Origin: a virus
IMG/VR virus record: IMGVR_UViG_3300001419_000055
Location: 1 to 24,132 of that record
Direction: 5' to 3' (one strand)
Length of the DNA: 24,132 nt
In this document: piece after piece, positions 5,532 to 15,198 of the stretch
Position numbering within the stretch: the first letter of the stretch is position 1
How the letters are laid out: the number at the start of each line of letters is the position of its first letter
Notes under the pieces: generated by a model
Told to the model about the DNA's origin: nothing
The model's input: the letters and a program-made list of their open reading frames with translations, nothing else
Databases searched by the model: none
Translations under genes and position numbers: made by a program

Positions 5532-6008
5532 AACGTGCTCCTTTTCTTTGAGTTGTGCGCCCAGCTTTGCCAGGAGCGGTTTAATATTGTTTGTTCTTGG
5601 CGCATTGGTGAGCGCCACACTGTGTACGGCCACAAGTCGTCTGTCTGATTTTCGGACATGAAAGACCGGAGAGAAATAACGGTACTCGCCTTTGCTGACA
5701 TAGCCGGATGCTTCTGCCGTCCACTCGACACGAGCCTCGATTCCAACACCGTCGGTATAGCGCCAGTCACGACACCATCCGGCTGCAGGCGCTTTAACAT
5801 CGGCCAGAGTCTGATGCTCGTAGTCAAAGACAATGTCCACGCCACGTCGCTTAAGCATTGCTTCGACAAGCTGCCAGGACTCACGATCGACTTTGTAGGA
5901 TCCGGCACCCTCCACCTCGACCGTCCCTTCAGCGAAGATACAGATCCACTCGGGAAGCTCTTTTCCGGCTTCAAGTCCAAGTGCTGCAATGATGGTCAGT
6001 ATGTTCAT
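5004..6008 (-). CDS. I: Head maturation protease with scaffold domain, Mu gpI family
   Basis: A 334-aa Mu gpI-like protein. Residues about 1-150 form the protease part, with ELPEWICIFAEGTVEVEG near 18, DIVFDYEHQT near 59, PAAGWCRDWRYTDG near 74, and GEYRYFSPVF then VALTNAPRTN near 106-142. These are typical of phage prohead proteases of this family. Residues about 155-334 are charged, helical, scaffold-like sequence. In Mu the I product is self-cleaved and the C-terminal scaffold is also made separately as Z. The stop of gpG overlaps this start by 4 bases. A strong internal ribosome site for a Z-like product is listed separately. Confidence 0.88.
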   Translation of the reverse strand: MNILTIIAALGLEAGKELPEWICIFAEGTVEVEGAGSYKVDRESWQLVEAMLKRRGVDIVFDYEHQTLADVKAPAAGWCRDWRYTDGVGIEARVEWTAEASGYVSKGEYRYFSPVFHVRKSDRRLVAVHSVALTNAPRTNNIKPLLAKLGAQLKEKEHVMTLLEKLIAALKLKQDASETDVVAAVTRLQEQGTNPKEVVSKAVIAALGIEQSDESTVVASIHALKQSGKNMVSQDQFDQLQAKLTKRDADEVVAKAMTDGKITPDQKDWATKYATDDLDGFRIFVSKAPVVIPLKKLPDGNQENDTLNMSDSILNVAKMMDVDEADLKEFGGLE

Positions 6009-6460
6009 AATTTCCCCTGCAGGATAAAATTGCTTAAATCCTCATTTATGTTGTCCCAGTCTTTGTCCTGGACCATGAGGAAGGGTCTTGCTGGTATTTT
6101 GACTTTTTTATTCCGCCCGGCCATACCGCCAAACTGGTGGATTGCTGCATACACTTTATCCGTGCCAACCATGACGATATTCCCGGCTACCTGAGAATGG
6201 ATAGAACCCATAAGCCCACCACCATGACCTTTACCGACCAGGATGGATCCACCTTTCTTTTTCGCCAGGGTGACAGGGCTCAATTCCGTCCAGCCAGTGG
6301 GACGACCTCCTTTCTCAAAGTTCCTGAGAACCGACGCTTCCACCGTGGCACCAATGATTTTAAGGGCCGGATCAAGCTTGCCGAGTCGCTTTTCAACACC
6401 TTTGATGTTTGCTCTCAGCTCATCAATGTTGTGTTGTATGGTTATTTCCGTTCCGGCCAT
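6005..6460 (-). CDS. G: Virion morphogenesis protein, Mu gpG family
   Basis: A 151-aa protein of the phage virion morphogenesis family (Mu gpG, P2 gpS relatives). The tell-tale segments are an N-terminal charged helix and RNFEKGGRPTGWTELSPVTLAKKKGG (about residues 47-72). These are followed by VGTDKVYAAIHQFGG and VKIPARPFLMV (about 98-130). In Mu gpG is needed for head/tail assembly and may act in tail completion. The ribosome site is weak (an AG-rich stretch with no clear GGAGG). A large intergenic hairpin lies upstream. The last codons overlap the I start. Confidence 0.88.
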   Translation of the reverse strand: MAGTEITIQHNIDELRANIKGVEKRLGKLDPALKIIGATVEASVLRNFEKGGRPTGWTELSPVTLAKKKGGSILVGKGHGGGLMGSIHSQVAGNIVMVGTDKVYAAIHQFGGMAGRNKKVKIPARPFLMVQDKDWDNINEDLSNFILQGKL

Positions 6461-6503
6461 TCTTGTCTTTTCTCTCTTTCTGCGTTATTATTTCAGTTAC
6501 GGT

Positions 6504-6538
6504 TATGGCGATTGATTCACGGATCGATAATCGCCATA
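6504..6538 (-). repeat. 10-bp inverted repeat between F and G
   Basis: Perfect 10-bp arms (6504-6513 and 6529-6538) with a 15-base loop occupy the 117-bp gap between the F and G genes. No U-tract follows on either strand, so it is not a clear terminator. An RNA processing site or expression control element is possible. The rest of this gap shows no gene. Confidence 0.5.
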
Positions 6539-6577
6539 CAGCGCGGGAACTGCCGTGACAGTTCGTCCGTCCTTTTC

Positions 6578-7843
6578 TTATTCTTCCTTCCTGTACACCA
6601 GTTGTCCTGTCCGTTGTTTGCTCAGATAGTTCCAGCTTGTGATCGGCATCATCGTCCAGGCCTCGATCATTCCGTTTTTTGCATCACAGATAACCAGCAG
6701 CCCTTTCTTACCTTTGTCCAACGGCAGGATTTTGATAATGCGCTGCCGGAGTACTATCTTGCCGGTTCCCTTGTGCCGATCAAAACGCTGCCACACCTCC
6801 TGTGGATCCGTGAGCGTCTCCGGGAGGAAGGGGAGGAAAGGAGTACGGTTCAAATCAATATGGGCAATCAGCACCTCTGCATTCACCACGATATCGTAAC
6901 GAAAGCCGTCTTTTGCGGTGAAGCTGTAGATCTGTTCTTTGCCACCAATGATTTTCTCAAGGGTTGAGGTGGCAAGTTCTGGGTCGGTTATTTTGGCACC
7001 CATAGAAGCCATTGGATTATCCGGTACCAGATTGTTGGCAAGTCCATATGTCGCCCAGTCACCAGGGGTGAGCTGCTCCCAGGCATCTGCTTTCATTGCC
7101 TGGTATTCAGCCATTGCCTTCTGTGACAGCTGTTTTCCCCAGGCGGCTTGTCCGGGGTTATAATCCCAGCCGGGATCAATGCCCTTTGGTACCTGGGTGA
7201 TTTCACCTGTTTTGCGATCGATATGGTCATAGTGCTCTATCCCTGGTCCCTTGGTACGAATGGGGGTTCCACTGTCCTCGAATTCCTTTTGCAGCTCTTC
7301 CAGTTCTCTTTGTGAAACTGTGGTCACTCCACATTTGCAGCCCCAGCCGTTTCGCGGAGTATGAGTGTCCCAGAAGGGATCATCATGTCGTAGCACCAGG
7401 TTGTACCACTGCATATGCTCTTTTCTCGGGTTGGCTGAGCGAGAAGCCAGATACCTGAGATACGGCCTTGCGGCCAGTACAGCAGGATCGTTTCGTGCCT
7501 TATAATGTCCGGCATCATAGGCAACAGCGAGATTGGTATCGTAAATGATAGCCGAGCGCCACCCCCGACCACCCTTGTAATTCCAGCCATGGGTCGCAAC
7601 AATTGAATCAAAGTCTTTCCGAAACTCGGCAAGAGTCGTCCCCTGACTGATTGCCTTATCAACAGCTTGACGCAGATCGCTGAGCAGCTCAGCTTTACCC
7701 GCACCGGCAACCACAAAGGCCCTGCTGTGCATTCCTCGCCACAAGTCGTCCCATGCCTCCGTCGGCAGGTTCACTTTCTGCCTGAAAAATGCGATCGCAT
7801 CACGAAAGGGCAGTGATAGATAATTTGCAGAGGGGCCTCTCAT
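6578..7843 (-). CDS. F: Head morphogenesis protein, Mu gpF family, with C-terminal PBECR-like nuclease domain
   Basis: A protein of about 421 aa. Residues about 1-220 are the Mu gpF/SPP1 gp7-type minor head domain, with an N-terminal FRDAIAFFRQKVNLPTEAW segment. It also has YDTNLAVAYDAGHYKA near 105, and the conserved SANPRKEHMQWYNLVL ... PRNGWGCKC motif near 137-175. Residues about 335-421 carry a segment with FLPETLTDPQEVWQ and a following beta-rich run. This matches my recollection of phage-associated barnase/EndoU/colicin/RelE-like (PBECR) nuclease domains attached to head proteins. Some family members carry such a domain, and it might be delivered with DNA. The start is GTG-ATG with no clear ribosome site and an in-frame TAA shortly upstream. 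ATG at 7843 is chosen. Confidence 0.85.
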   Translation of the reverse strand: MRGPSANYLSLPFRDAIAFFRQKVNLPTEAWDDLWRGMHSRAFVVAGAGKAELLSDLRQAVDKAISQGTTLAEFRKDFDSIVATHGWNYKGGRGWRSAIIYDTNLAVAYDAGHYKARNDPAVLAARPYLRYLASRSANPRKEHMQWYNLVLRHDDPFWDTHTPRNGWGCKCGVTTVSQRELEELQKEFEDSGTPIRTKGPGIEHYDHIDRKTGEITQVPKGIDPGWDYNPGQAAWGKQLSQKAMAEYQAMKADAWEQLTPGDWATYGLANNLVPDNPMASMGAKITDPELATSTLEKIIGGKEQIYSFTAKDGFRYDIVVNAEVLIAHIDLNRTPFLPFLPETLTDPQEVWQRFDRHKGTGKIVLRQRIIKILPLDKGKKGLLVICDAKNGMIEAWTMMPITSWNYLSKQRTGQLVYRKEE

Positions 7844-7889
7844 CACAAAACCATGTTTAAAAGTTGTTTAAATTTTCCCGTATCAAACG

Positions 7890-7925
7890 CACGGGTGCTC
7901 GCCCGTGTGTTGGGGCAACGTCCCC
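7890..7925. repeat. Small inverted repeats in the F-portal gap
   Basis: The gap between portal and F (7847-7947) holds a 6-bp hairpin (7890-7895 and 7902-7907, GC-rich) and a weaker 4-bp GGGG/CCCC hairpin (7912-7925). No gene or clear promoter is visible. The F gene downstream lacks a ribosome site, so local RNA structure or readthrough may govern its translation. Confidence 0.35.
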
Positions 7926-7947
7926 TAAAAAACGCTTACAGGCCATT

Positions 7948-9516
7948 TTAAGGCCTCCCGTCAAATTGCCCGGATTGGTCTGCCAGAACAAAGGCCTGCT
8001 GCATTACTTTCGCAAGGGCCGTTGTATCCATATCTCCATAAACTGCGAGGAGACGATCTCTGAATTCCTCCAGGCTGGTTACCTGGTCAAGCAGTTGTTT
8101 GGCTGGCTGCAGCAGATCTTCCAGAGAGGTTTGCGAAAGGGTCATCTCTGTCAGGGTGTCGATCTGGTCTTCTGTTTCTCCAAGTTGACCGGCAACAATG
8201 AACTTTTCAGTTTTCTTTTCTGTCTTGGGGCTTTCCTTCTCGGGTGCTTGAGCTGCTCCACCAACCATCTCCTCGTTCCCTTCTCTTTCAGGGATACCGA
8301 ATGAGCGGTTGACGAAAGAACGAGGCATGGGGACACGTTCGAGCATGTTGCTCATCCATTCCGACTTCGCGACCAGGTCATCAGGCTCTTCAAACAGGAT
8401 GGAGTATTTGGGAATAGCCGTATCCCATCCAAAGTTGAAGCCCACCAGGGGCCTGATCAGCTGGTCCCGTATCGTTGAGGCAATGGCTCGGCCATCTGCT
8501 CGCAATAGGTCAAGGCGGACTTCATTGTGGGTCTTTGAGGCTGCGTAGCTACCTTTCCCGTCAACCTCGGCGGTGAGGGTCTGTCCCAGGAGGGCTTTTG
8601 ATATTTCTCCATTGCAGAAAGAGGCCAGCAGTTTGTAGAGATCACCACTGGCATTCTTCACCGTTTCGATGAATTCAATCTCAGTGGATTTTGAAATCAC
8701 CCCGGCCGCATCACTGCCGAGCGAAGAAATGGCACTTCTGAGTGCCTTCTTTTCGTCACTGCTTGCACCTTGGTCATATTTGCCCAACCTGAGTGGCATC
8801 CCAAAAATCTCGCAGAAGATTACCCAGTCTTTAATGGCGTAATGCTTAAAGAGAGTCATCCATGCGGCAACACGATAGATCCCCGATCTGGTTGGATGGC
8901 CCGATTTCCCACCATAATCATGCATGAGAACCTTCCATGCTGGGATATCAATCCCCATGGTATTATCGTCGGTGAGTAGACGGGGAATCCTGGACAGGAG
9001 ACCGGTATCGGCGGTAAAGAGGAATCGCTTCTGTTCCAGATATTCAAGCTTGGCTGGTATTGCCTGACCCTCTGATATGTCCCAGGTGATTTCTTGAGCT
9101 GCATAGCCTTTTCCGATGGCATCCTGCATGGCGACAATTGATTCTTCCCAGTCTGCCAAACCTTCAAATGTGTCACGGACAAAATCAGCGACCGTCTGAT
9201 CTCGTGCATCTTCGCTGGCCGGTTCTACGTTGAAATCCAGGTCAAGAATTACATTTCTGCGTTTATCCCGTTCACAGAGGAGGTGGCCGTCTTTCTCTTC
9301 GAGCTGCTCAAAGAGTTCCGCCTGGGATCGCATATCTCCACCGTCAGCAGCCTTGAACACAGCAGCAAGACGCTCTGGAGTGAGGCCGTCTGTCACATAT
9401 TCCCGAAACGAGTCCAGAACAGGAGCCACAGCCAGGGGCGCACGCTCTGGAGTTTTGTTGCGGCTCAGATCGATCTTGCGGCCAAACTGATCATATATGG
9501 TTATTGATTTGGCCAT
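7948..9516 (-). CDS. Portal protein, Mu gp29 family (DUF935)
   Basis: A 522-aa Mu gp29-type portal. Family features include an N-terminal ITIYDQFGRKIDL start and the GDMRSQAELFEQLEEKDGHLLCERDKRR segment (about 59-86). They also include WEESIVAMQDAIGKGYAAQEITWD near 130-155 and SGIYRVAAWMTLFKHYAIKDWVIFCEIFGMPLRLGKYD near 215-252. The later FNGEISKALLGQTL-like region and the FGWDT motif near 375 are also characteristic. The C-terminal 100 residues are charged and variable. ATG at 9516 is preferred over 9522: it overlaps the terminase stop (TAATG) and lies 7 bases from the AAAGGAG site, while the earlier ATG is only one base away. The dodecameric portal is the head vertex for packaging. Confidence 0.92.
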   Translation of the reverse strand: MAKSITIYDQFGRKIDLSRNKTPERAPLAVAPVLDSFREYVTDGLTPERLAAVFKAADGGDMRSQAELFEQLEEKDGHLLCERDKRRNVILDLDFNVEPASEDARDQTVADFVRDTFEGLADWEESIVAMQDAIGKGYAAQEITWDISEGQAIPAKLEYLEQKRFLFTADTGLLSRIPRLLTDDNTMGIDIPAWKVLMHDYGGKSGHPTRSGIYRVAAWMTLFKHYAIKDWVIFCEIFGMPLRLGKYDQGASSDEKKALRSAISSLGSDAAGVISKSTEIEFIETVKNASGDLYKLLASFCNGEISKALLGQTLTAEVDGKGSYAASKTHNEVRLDLLRADGRAIASTIRDQLIRPLVGFNFGWDTAIPKYSILFEEPDDLVAKSEWMSNMLERVPMPRSFVNRSFGIPEREGNEEMVGGAAQAPEKESPKTEKKTEKFIVAGQLGETEDQIDTLTEMTLSQTSLEDLLQPAKQLLDQVTSLEEFRDRLLAVYGDMDTTALAKVMQQAFVLADQSGQFDGRP

Positions 9517-10985
9517 TACCATGCTCCTTTCTTGGCAAAGCGACGTTTGCTGACTGATTCGTATTCTGTTTCTCCACCACCTTCCTGGTAGGTAGCGTGG
9601 ATAGCCATGGCTCCGGCAATTCCTGAATCACCGTGCCGCTGTTTTCTGTCTTTTTTATTGGTCTTTTTCTCGGGAAGCTTGGCTATCCCTCTGATCACCT
9701 TAAAGGCTCTATGGTCTTCGATGATATCTGCGTCTTTTGGCAGCAGGATGGATCTATCCTCGAAAGCGGCTTTGTACTTGGGCATAAATTCCCGGTACCA
9801 GGATTCGGAAAGCATTACCTCGGAGATCCGATCCTCCCCATATTTCTGTGCTGCAACTTCTGCGAGGTACTGGCCGTTGCCACGAGCATCAAAAGAGCCG
9901 TGACGAAAACGGGGCAAGCGATCAATGATGTAAAAGAGAATCTGCTCCTGCTGCTTAAAGGGTATGTTTCTCATCTCCAGCACAACTGGTGCCTTAAAGA
10001 TAGCTCCCTGTGTCTCCTGCAGGGGAACAAGCACACTTAAGTCACCGGTACGGCCAAAATCTTCTCCGAGATAACTTTGTCTCTTAGGATCAAGCGCATC
10101 GAGTAGTTGTTTTAAATGATCTTCGCACCAGGCCTCGATATCCGATTGACGGACAGCCTCATCCTGATATTTGAACTCATCAGGTCTTTCCAGACGGATA
10201 ACCGGTATTTCATCACTCATGCAATTTTCAACCAGGACACGTGAAAGAAATGTCCCTGATCCCTGGGATGGAATACAGAACAGCTCTTCGTCTGCGCCAT
10301 CGCCGTAAGAGTCTATCAGCTTCTGGCGCCATTCATCCTGGGCGGTCTGTGACCAGGTGCGCTTCAGCTTGAGGCAGATTCGTTTGTAAAAGCCCTGGTC
10401 GAGTGCATCGTCGAGTGTTACCCGGTGCAGGGAATACGGTTTACGGCCAGCACGGATGTCCTTAATTAGCTCATTGAACGGGTTGTCCTCACCGTCATGT
10501 GTGGAAATTATCCGTATTTCACCGCCCCAGATTAGCAGTGCCATGGCTGCTTTGATCAGCTCGGCCAGGTCATCATGGAATGCTGCCTCGTCTATCACCA
10601 CCCGGCCCTGTTTTCCGCGAAGGTTTGATGGGCGTGAGGAAAGAGCCACTATTTTATTTCCGGAGGAGAAGCGGATCCGGAAGGTAAGGATGTCTTTATC
10701 CTTATCCTTGATAACCTCTTCTTCAACAGCACCAGCGGCTTCATCGTAGAGCTTTGCCCATTTGGCACAGTCCCCGATAAACTCCTCGGCCATCTCCTTG
10801 TTGTAGCCGATATACCAGACGTCGGAACCACTCTCCTCAGAGGCAAACAGGGTGTCATCCCCGGACTCTGACCAGGAGAGACCGATACGGCGTGATTTCT
10901 CAATCACTTTAACTTCGGCCTTATCGTCAGCCCAGTCCTGCTGGTATGGCAGAAAGACGTGTGGCGTTGAGTAGCTTTTGGTCAT
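9516..10985 (-). CDS. Terminase large subunit, Mu gp28 family
   Basis: A 489-aa DNA packaging motor. A deviant Walker A lies at about 29-38 (EKSRRIGLSW) and Walker B at about 128-135 (RVVIDEAA). The coupling motif ISTHDG is near 160. The RNase H-like nuclease domain opens with a YLGEDFGRTGDLSVLV strand near 305-320, supplying the first catalytic aspartate. A second acidic site follows at SFDARGNGQ. Start and stop are coupled to the genes on both sides (ATGA with gp27, TAATG with the portal). Mu-type headful packaging of integrated copies is inferred from the family. Confidence 0.92.
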   Translation of the reverse strand: MTKSYSTPHVFLPYQQDWADDKAEVKVIEKSRRIGLSWSESGDDTLFASEESGSDVWYIGYNKEMAEEFIGDCAKWAKLYDEAAGAVEEEVIKDKDKDILTFRIRFSSGNKIVALSSRPSNLRGKQGRVVIDEAAFHDDLAELIKAAMALLIWGGEIRIISTHDGEDNPFNELIKDIRAGRKPYSLHRVTLDDALDQGFYKRICLKLKRTWSQTAQDEWRQKLIDSYGDGADEELFCIPSQGSGTFLSRVLVENCMSDEIPVIRLERPDEFKYQDEAVRQSDIEAWCEDHLKQLLDALDPKRQSYLGEDFGRTGDLSVLVPLQETQGAIFKAPVVLEMRNIPFKQQEQILFYIIDRLPRFRHGSFDARGNGQYLAEVAAQKYGEDRISEVMLSESWYREFMPKYKAAFEDRSILLPKDADIIEDHRAFKVIRGIAKLPEKKTNKKDRKQRHGDSGIAGAMAIHATYQEGGGETEYESVSKRRFAKKGAW

Positions 10986-14273: not shown

Positions 14274-14884
14274 TACGCCACCTCCTTTGCCACACCGGCG
14301 CCACGAACAACAAACGAGACAGAAGCTGAAGAACGGCCAACCTTTTTAGCAATATTTGCCTGAGAGTAGCCCTGTGCGTAAAGTGAAACGATCTCTTCAA
14401 TTTCATCCTCGGAAATCTTTGAGGCCGCTTTTCTCTTCTTTGGTATCTGGCTTTCCAGGTACTTGATCTGGATATCTTTCCACTCAATTACCTGATCTTT
14501 TAACACAAGCATCATGTCGTTTGGAATAGCCGGGTGATTTACACTGTGCACCGCTCCGGGGATGGCGTAGGAGCCGGTCTTGCGGATGGATGGGAGGACT
14601 TCCGAAGTCACCCATTCGATGAAAGGTTCCGCTTCCGGTTTGTTGGATCTGAGAATGAGACGGTAGAGGCCCGGTTCGGACACGGCCTTCATTTCTCTCA
14701 TTTGACCACCTGACTGTAATTCTATTACAGTCAGGTGGTGCTCTGGAATCTTGGCAAGAGCATTCGTGATATGTTCAAGCCCAAGAACGTCACAAATATC
14801 CTTGGCAACAAACCACGGCTCATCATTGATAATTTGGGAACGAAACTGGTGGGACTGATACTGAAAGGTTTTTACTTCGTGCAT
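14273..14884 (-). CDS. BRO-N antirepressor with C-terminal helix-turn-helix
   Basis: A 203-aa protein. Residues about 5-105 are the BRO-N fold: an FQYQSHQFRSQIINDEPWFVAKDICDVLGL-like start, an LxxIPEHH beta-hairpin, and SEPGLYRLILRSNKPEAEPFIEWVTSEVLPSIRKTGSY, the family's clearest motif. Residues about 155-200 hold a resolvase/Hin-like helix-turn-helix (SEDEIEEIVSLYAQGYSQANIAKKVGRSSASV). Such proteins act as antirepressors in P1, P22-like and other phages. The ribosome site is AAAGGAG with 7-base spacing. Upstream lies a structured leader with self-complementary antisense segments, as in the c4-ant operons of P1/P7. A perfect 16-bp palindrome lies within the gene. Confidence 0.9.
   Translation of the reverse strand: MHEVKTFQYQSHQFRSQIINDEPWFVAKDICDVLGLEHITNALAKIPEHHLTVIELQSGGQMREMKAVSEPGLYRLILRSNKPEAEPFIEWVTSEVLPSIRKTGSYAIPGAVHSVNHPAIPNDMMLVLKDQVIEWKDIQIKYLESQIPKKRKAASKISEDEIEEIVSLYAQGYSQANIAKKVGRSSASVSFVVRGAGVAKEVA
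14705..14739. repeat. Perfect 16-bp palindrome inside the antirepressor gene
   Basis: Arms 14705-14720 and 14724-14739 are exact reverse complements with a 3-base centre. The site falls within the BRO-N beta-hairpin codons (about residues 49-60). The RNA would form a very stable hairpin in the coding region; as DNA it is long enough to be a dimeric protein's operator. Confidence 0.9.
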
Positions 14885-14953: not shown

Positions 14954-14970
14954 CCGTGTAGGGTTGACGG
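14954..14970 (-). promoter_or_regulatory. Antisense target site in the antirepressor leader
   Basis: This 17-base segment of the leader is complementary to the upstream RNA segment at 15129-15111. The match is three blocks of 5 pairs, broken by a 3/2-base internal loop and one bulged U. It lies 70-86 bases before the antirepressor start. The arrangement of two paired blocks resembles the a/b targets of C4 RNA in P1. Confidence 0.5.
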
Positions 14971-15052
14971 ACCGGTCAAAAGGCACCCGGCGAGCCCGAA
15001 AGCTCCCCCACACGGCCCGCCCAAAAAGAAGCAAACCATGTACTGTGGACAC

Positions 15053-15083
15053 AAAAAAACCGCCTGTTCCTGCCGGTGGCGGT
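15053..15083 (-). terminator. Intrinsic terminator/attenuator in the antirepressor leader
   Basis: On the minus strand a 6-bp GC-rich stem (15083-15078 with 15064-15059) with a 13-base loop is followed directly by seven U residues (15059-15053), a standard intrinsic terminator. The 5' arm can instead pair with GGCGG at 15092-15088 to make a competing hairpin, so the site could switch. Transcripts ending here would be about 90 bases long. An outer helix (15089-15084 with 15052-15047) could also close around it. Confidence 0.6.
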
Positions 15084-15142
15084 GTGTCCGCCTTTTGATA
15101 TAGATTCGAGCCGTCAAACCCGGTCACGGATTTTGCCGTGAC
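15053..15142 (-). ncRNA. C4-type antisense RNA upstream of the antirepressor
   Basis: A promoter with a perfect TTGACA box would start an RNA near 15142. The RNA opens with a 7-bp hairpin (15142-15136 with 15129-15123) and exposes a segment (15129-15111) complementary to the leader of the downstream antirepressor at 14970-14954. It can end at a U-rich terminator at 15053. C4 RNAs of P1/P7 and P4 have this plan: constitutive promoter, short structured RNA, two short antisense blocks and a target in the same transcript ahead of an antirepressor. The naming rests on architecture; the exact ends are inferred. An overlapping 91-aa ORF (14906-15181) has no ribosome site and is probably not translated. 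Confidence 0.6.
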
Positions 15143-15148
15143 AGGATT

Positions 15149-15178
15149 ACGATAGCCCGATTTTGCAGATTGTGTCAA
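15149..15178 (-). promoter_or_regulatory. Sigma70-like promoter for the C4-like RNA/antirepressor operon
   Basis: On the minus strand the -35 box is TTGACA (15178-15173, perfect), the spacer is 18 bases, and the -10 is TATCGT (15154-15149, 4 of 6). Transcription would start near 15142. It lies just after the Mor gene. The strong -35 argues for constitutive use and against Mor dependence. Confidence 0.6.
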
Positions 15179-15198
15179 CATTTTTATAATTTGAACCT

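Follow-up and report, generated by a model that had tools for sequence, protein, structure and literature searches.

An intact C4 antisense-RNA cassette of the P1/P7 and Gifsy-1 type ahead of an antirepressor gene in a Mu-like phage

In the phages P1 and P7, the C4 RNA of the immI region (c4-icd-ant) has been described as a trans-acting antisense RNA, which blocks the translation of ant (PMC12197685). The P1 record (NC_005856) annotates the promoter P1c4 (TTGACC, TATAGT), a1 (TTGACAG), b1 (GTTAGTGC) and a C4 of 77 nt, together with a2 (TTGACAG) and b2 (GTTAGTGA), which are the annotated repression targets, icd and ant. A second system is found in the lambda-like Gifsy-1, in which the short IsrK RNA turns on the translation of the read-through anrP mRNA; in vitro, the isrK-orf45 RNA showed two conformations on native gels, and the 2016 paper on IsrK makes no mention of the C4 of P1 (PMC4825925). 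In the phage P4, the CI RNA is an antisense RNA processed from a transcript with targets, seqA and seqC, on both of its sides (PMC4825925).

Here we analysed a stretch of DNA of 24,132 bases (hereafter the window), corresponding to the IMG/VR virus record IMGVR_UViG_3300001419_000055, which in our judgement almost certainly holds an immunity cassette built on a C4 antisense RNA, complete and of the type of P1/P7 c4 and Gifsy-1 isrK, in a Mu-like phage. The minus strand of the window codes for a Mu-type transposase, a MuB-like ATPase, GemA and a protein of the Mor/C family, followed by late genes, and the Mu-like markers PF09299, PF13401, PF06252 and PF08765 were matched; by this set of four genes the virus is classified as a Mu-like phage. 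On this strand, gemA (16018-15536; PF06252, E = 1.9e-25) is followed by the gene of the Mor/C-family activator, mor (15543-15199; PF08765), just upstream of the cassette, whose product is the single Mor/C-family protein among the scanned proteins of the window. About 300 bases directly after mor are non-coding, and the gene that follows codes for a protein of 203 aa, in which a Bro-N domain and a helix-turn-helix were recognised. In Mu the same genomic interval, from gemA-mor to lysis, is occupied by the middle operon (Mor, C), with the protein activator C instead of a C4. The host of the window phage is probably a sulfur-cycling bacterium, its relatives being located in metagenome-assembled genomes (MAGs) of Desulfocapsa and Desulfobulbaceae. 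As a separate observation, the early operon of the window contains a Hammerhead_II ribozyme (17166-17098, minus strand; 47.9 bits, cut-off 37), about 2 kb upstream of C4; such a ribozyme also occurs in 9 of the 12 Mu-like records or genomes with a C4 that were searched for it and, where checked, it lay on the same strand, 2-5 kb upstream of C4.

All the parts of the cassette are present and in order on the minus strand. About 20 bp past the mor stop codon there is a sigma-70-type promoter (15178-15149), composed of a −35 box TTGACA (15178-15173), an 18-nt spacer and a −10 box TATCGT (15154-15149), which agrees with the consensus at 10 of 12 positions, just 4 of the 6 in the −10 box; from its position, the leader RNA would start at 15142. 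On the opposite strand, a promoter-like TTTGCA/TATAAT (15162-15190) is aimed into mor from its 3' side and may be due to chance. The Rfam isrK model (RF01394) matched 15142-15053 over its full length (E = 7e-10 in a 401-base region) with 49.7 bits, a match obtained with a permissive threshold and 0.3 bit under the gathering score of 50. This isrK-like leader is formed by a 5' hairpin, GUCACGG-CAAAAU-CCGUGAC (15142-15123), identified by sequence and fold, a hairpin carrying a1 (UUGACGG, 15117-15111), the upstream copy of the C4 target, b1 (UCAAAAGG, 15098-15091) and an intrinsic terminator, CCGCC...GGCGG-U7 (15082-15053), which corresponds to the one in the isrK model and marks the boundary between leader and C4. 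The Rfam model of the C4 targets, c4-a1b1 (RF03163), spans 15155-15103 (52.8 bits, cut-off 46.7, E = 6.6e-11), and the C4 model (RF01695) spans 15027-14946, covering positions 1-87 of 87 (60.1 bits, cut-off 45, E = 1.5e-9), both in searches of the whole window at gathering thresholds. The predicted C4 RNA (15022-14946), made of the P1 stem, P2 and P3, is 77 nt long and folds at −43.8 kcal/mol (z = −3.2); the whole leader also folds far better than its shuffles (z = −5.0).

Within C4, b' (CCUUUUGA, 14983-14976), located in the P3 loop, is complementary to b1 and b2, and a' (CCGUCAA, 14970-14964) is complementary to a1 and a2. The second target copy lies downstream of C4, where a2 (UUGACGG, 14934-14928) is followed by GGACGG (14922-14917), an alternative partner of the 3' arm of C4 (CCGUCC) according to folds and arm comparison, and by b2 (UCAAAAGG, 14901-14894), which overlaps the Shine-Dalgarno sequence AGGAG (14896-14892) of ant. 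The ant gene (14884-14273), coding for the Bro-N and helix-turn-helix antirepressor (PF02498, E = 6.8e-22; PHROG anti-repressor Ant, E = 4e-44), has its AUG at 14884, 17 nt after b2, and the 7-bp a'/a2 and 8-bp b'/b2 pairings are located at its ribosome-binding region. A first-pass annotation of this DNA had already pointed out the promoter just after mor, the U-rich terminator between the complementary segments and a C4-ant logic of the P1/P7 type before a Bro-N antirepressor gene in a Mu-like phage, all of which are borne out, the last by the parts, the Rfam matches and the covariation described below; the search with the C4 model, proposed there as a test, gave the above-threshold match just reported. 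The complementarity that it had drawn between 15129-15111 and 14970-14954 is real, but it does not consist of three 5-bp blocks: it is better described as the 7 bp between a1 and a', which fall within those two segments, with the pairing of b1 and b' in addition, and the elements b1, b', a2 and b2 had been missed.

The order of promoter, a1, b1, terminator hairpin, 77-nt C4, a2, b2 and antirepressor gene is common to P1/P7 and the window, and the spacing is also very close, since the −35 box and a1 are 60 nt apart in P1 and 61 nt apart in the window, and b2 precedes the next start codon by 18 and 17 nt, respectively. There are differences as well: in P1 icd is interposed between b2 and ant, whereas the window has no icd and b2 overlaps the Shine-Dalgarno sequence of ant itself; moreover, the cassette is here borne by a transposing phage of the Mu-like type, unlike in P1/P7, and no repressor operator was identified in the window. 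A short reading frame resembling the icd-ant coupling of P1 was observed in another C4 locus, L064 (6136-6198), where it seems to lie between b2 and an ORF6N antirepressor gene and to end near the Shine-Dalgarno sequence of the latter. With isrK-orf45-anrP of Gifsy-1 the window shares an isrK-like terminated leader, a C4 25 nt later and an antirepressor gene. In fact, in Gifsy-1 IsrK (34316-34240) is followed, 25 nt further, by a C4 (34214-34131) scoring 69 bits, although the phage is lambda-like and not Mu-like and the specificity word is UUGGCGU versus UUGACGG in the window. In P1, an isrK-like leader just before C4 reached 35 bits, below the cut-off. Since IsrK, or an isrK-like leader, adjoins C4 in both Gifsy-1 and P1, IsrK is the leader of the same cassette as C4. 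The Salmonella RNA STnc1160, of about 80 nt and downstream of IsrK, coincides with the 69-bit match in Gifsy-1 (NC_010392, 34214-34131, minus strand) and, from this coincidence, appears to be a C4 RNA. The CI RNA of P4, compared by description only, is similar in being an antisense RNA flanked by targets in its own transcript, but it works through transcription termination of replication genes, unlike our reading of the window C4.

The pairings were then evaluated across C4 loci. In 55 distinct loci with 23 different a' words, a1 was an exact 7/7 partner of a' in 53 and a2 in 46, while exchanging partners among loci that differ in a' gave exact matches at rates of 0.5% (a1) and 0.2% (a2); this set comprises the loci with a parsable a' (4 unparsable ones were left out) and was not selected for targets. 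In alignments, 252 of 252 a'-a2 cells were paired over 36 loci, with 52 double changes, and 99.2% of the a1-a' cells, with 50 double changes, although these loci were picked for a recognisable a1 or a2 and many of them are related, so that the rates of the 55-locus set are the fair ones. None of 500 shuffles reached the double-change counts of either alignment, and shuffled and slid controls were far lower. For b', the match to its own partner averaged 7.0 nt (b1) and 6.8 nt (b2), compared to 4.8 and 4.45 nt for swapped partners. In the window and in the four cassettes of its relatives L021-L023 the words are GACGG, GGAAG, GGUCG, GAGAG and GAGAU, different in each case, with a1, a' and a2 always in agreement. 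This covariation shows that the a1-a'-a2 and b1-b'-b2 pairings are under selection, and the compensatory changes in relatives that the first-pass annotation had asked for are thus found for a1, a' and a2. Together with the Rfam scores, it also rules out that the complementarity is due to chance or to a plain terminator palindrome. By contrast, the different a' words of the C4 pairs examined within one genome were dropped as evidence, since word frequencies predict such differences about half the time. We regard it as highly improbable that the cassette is a decayed remnant no longer functional in the window phage: pairing elements, promoter, terminator, Shine-Dalgarno sequence and ant reading frame are all intact, and the specificity covaries among relatives.

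Protein searches identified as relatives the Mu-like viral contigs L021, L022 and L023 and the Desulfobacterota MAG contigs L028 (Desulfocapsa), L029 and L030 (Desulfobulbaceae), and a scan of viral contigs with DUF3164 recovered the same L021-L023 and nothing further. C4 is present in L021 (two copies), L022, L023 and L030 (one copy), and L028 carries the cassette of L022 again. In L021, two tandem C4-antirepressor cassettes (5959-9401) each follow a copy of mor, the second truncated; their a' words are CUUCCAA and CGACCAA and their antirepressors ORF6N and Bro-N. No C4 was found in L029, a close Mu-like relative with gemA, mor and lysis genes, whose mor-to-lysis interval (8330-9985) contains small ORFs and neither C4 nor an antirepressor gene; therefore, the cassette is dispensable. 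In the Mu-like relatives the cassette lies between mor and lysis with varied specificities, and in every Mu-like copy scanned the gene after C4 belongs to an antirepressor family, namely Bro-N, ORF6N, Rha or AntA. Judged from these sequences, Mu-like copies retain the RNA part but exchange the effector.

On a larger scale, the order to which the Desulfocapsa MAG belongs was taken as host order; C4 matches were found in 42 of its 258 genomes, 33 above the cut-off, and in 7 of 395 genomes sampled evenly across the phylum, five of which are also in the order set. The order contains 32 strong GemA matches (E of at most 1.6e-19, except for one at 3.3e-19 and one at 2.5e-19 that are counted in), of which 10 had a same-strand C4 match 1.0-3.5 kb downstream, the gaps being computed from the listed coordinates and one of these C4 matches (G265) being below the cut-off; an eleventh pair (G221) has a weaker GemA match. 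By sequence, the cassette is common and swappable in Mu-like phages of this kind. C4 also occurs in this order at loci without any Mu-like gene nearby. On the other hand, no C4 match was obtained in the nine named Mu-like phages Mu, D3112, B3, RcapMu, SuMu, martha 12B12, MuM16-2, PhiKM and Bise, nor in the gemA-bearing Mae-JY22. The window Ant, used as protein query, found no relatives in viral contigs and only distant Bro-N proteins in named phages, in which a DNA similarity search with the leader gave only short C4-type fragments, the best in Pseudomonas phage phiAH14b, which is an element of the integrase type and has a strong C4.

The first-pass annotation had further placed the circuit, as a middle-region switch, directly under the Mor stage, and one could suppose that Mor activates the cassette promoter, with the RNA circuit acting as a timer of the lytic middle stage of the phage. 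The promoter does lie about 20 bp after mor, the cassette fills the interval in which Mu keeps its middle operon with C, and in L021 a cassette follows each mor copy. An activator-dependent promoter of the Mu Pm type is, however, expected to have a weak −35 box, and that of the window is perfect. All 14 Mu-like copies have the same perfect TTGACA, located 60-63 bp before a1, and 31 of 38 non-Mu copies match it at five or all six positions, including those of viral records where no Mor was found; thus, the promoter belongs to the cassette. A Mor scan of 16 C4-bearing or related viral records gave matches in only two Mu-like relatives. Moreover, the spacing of the cassette from gemA and mor varies, as in the gaps of 1.0-3.5 kb reported above, and L029 has mor without C4. 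As the cassette brings its own sigma-70 promoter, a position directly under the Mor stage is not supported, and we consider an activation by this protein unlikely.

For the C4 immunity cassette, the steps of RNA processing, arrest of ant translation and decoy action, as well as what the antirepressor acts on, can be modelled on P1 and Gifsy-1. The cassette-borne promoter would produce one transcript, part of which would stop at the terminator and give the isrK-like leader with a1 and b1; read-through would give C4, for which a processing by RNase P is assumed, the predicted length of 77 nt being the same as in P1. In the prophage, a' and b' of C4 would pair with a2 and b2, at the Shine-Dalgarno sequence of ant, and prevent the synthesis of the antirepressor. 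The leader, which carries the same two targets, could pair with C4 either in cis or as a released decoy, and the balance between leader and C4 would set the timing of ant translation, after which the antirepressor would inactivate the phage repressor.

It is possible, but in our opinion doubtful, that the leader is mainly a two-state switch in cis, in which the choice made at transcription or processing, more than an antisense action in trans, decides the expression of ant. In the ant-mRNA state, a1-b1 are paired with a'-b' and the 3' arm of C4 with the strand downstream of a2; this GGACGG/CCGUCC hairpin holds a2 and excludes the P1 stem of C4, opposing this state to the C4-folded one. For the full leader, the fold of minimum energy corresponds to the cis state and is 6.8 kcal/mol lower than the best C4-folded state. 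Of the 15 Mu-like cassettes, 12 prefer the cis state, by margins of 0.6 to 10.9 kcal/mol, and the other 3 show no such preference; these equilibrium folds, however, leave aside RNase P processing and folding in the course of transcription. For the arm of the alternative hairpin, the match to its own C4 arm (6.33) exceeds that to swapped arms (5.86; 0/5000), a modest covariation support, and the two conformations of isrK-orf45 RNA described above are in line with this alternative. Nevertheless, an action in trans predicts the same pairing, and in P1/P7 C4 was reported to act in this way. On the basis of the modelled folds, a two-state transcript is plausible.

The RNA switch itself is already known, and what is described here is an intact example in a group of Mu-like phages for which our literature search found no record of a C4, although this is not proof of absence. 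We suggest only tentatively that Mu-like phages of Desulfobacterota might, as a whole group, base their immunity on a swappable RNA cassette with a two-state transcript (decoy leader, C4 or ant mRNA), in which a 7-base word would define the immunity groups; L021, with two cassettes of mutually incompatible words and different antirepressors, would be a case of this kind. With this finding, the RNA-based lysogeny switch of P1/P7 and of lambdoid prophages is also seen in transposing phages of the Mu-like type, whose hosts are probably sulfur-cycling bacteria. Finally, with IsrK or its counterpart next to C4 in P1, Gifsy-1 and the window alike, two RNAs studied separately so far are parts of one circuit, and their union makes it testable how IsrK may switch on the antirepressor, namely by titrating C4.
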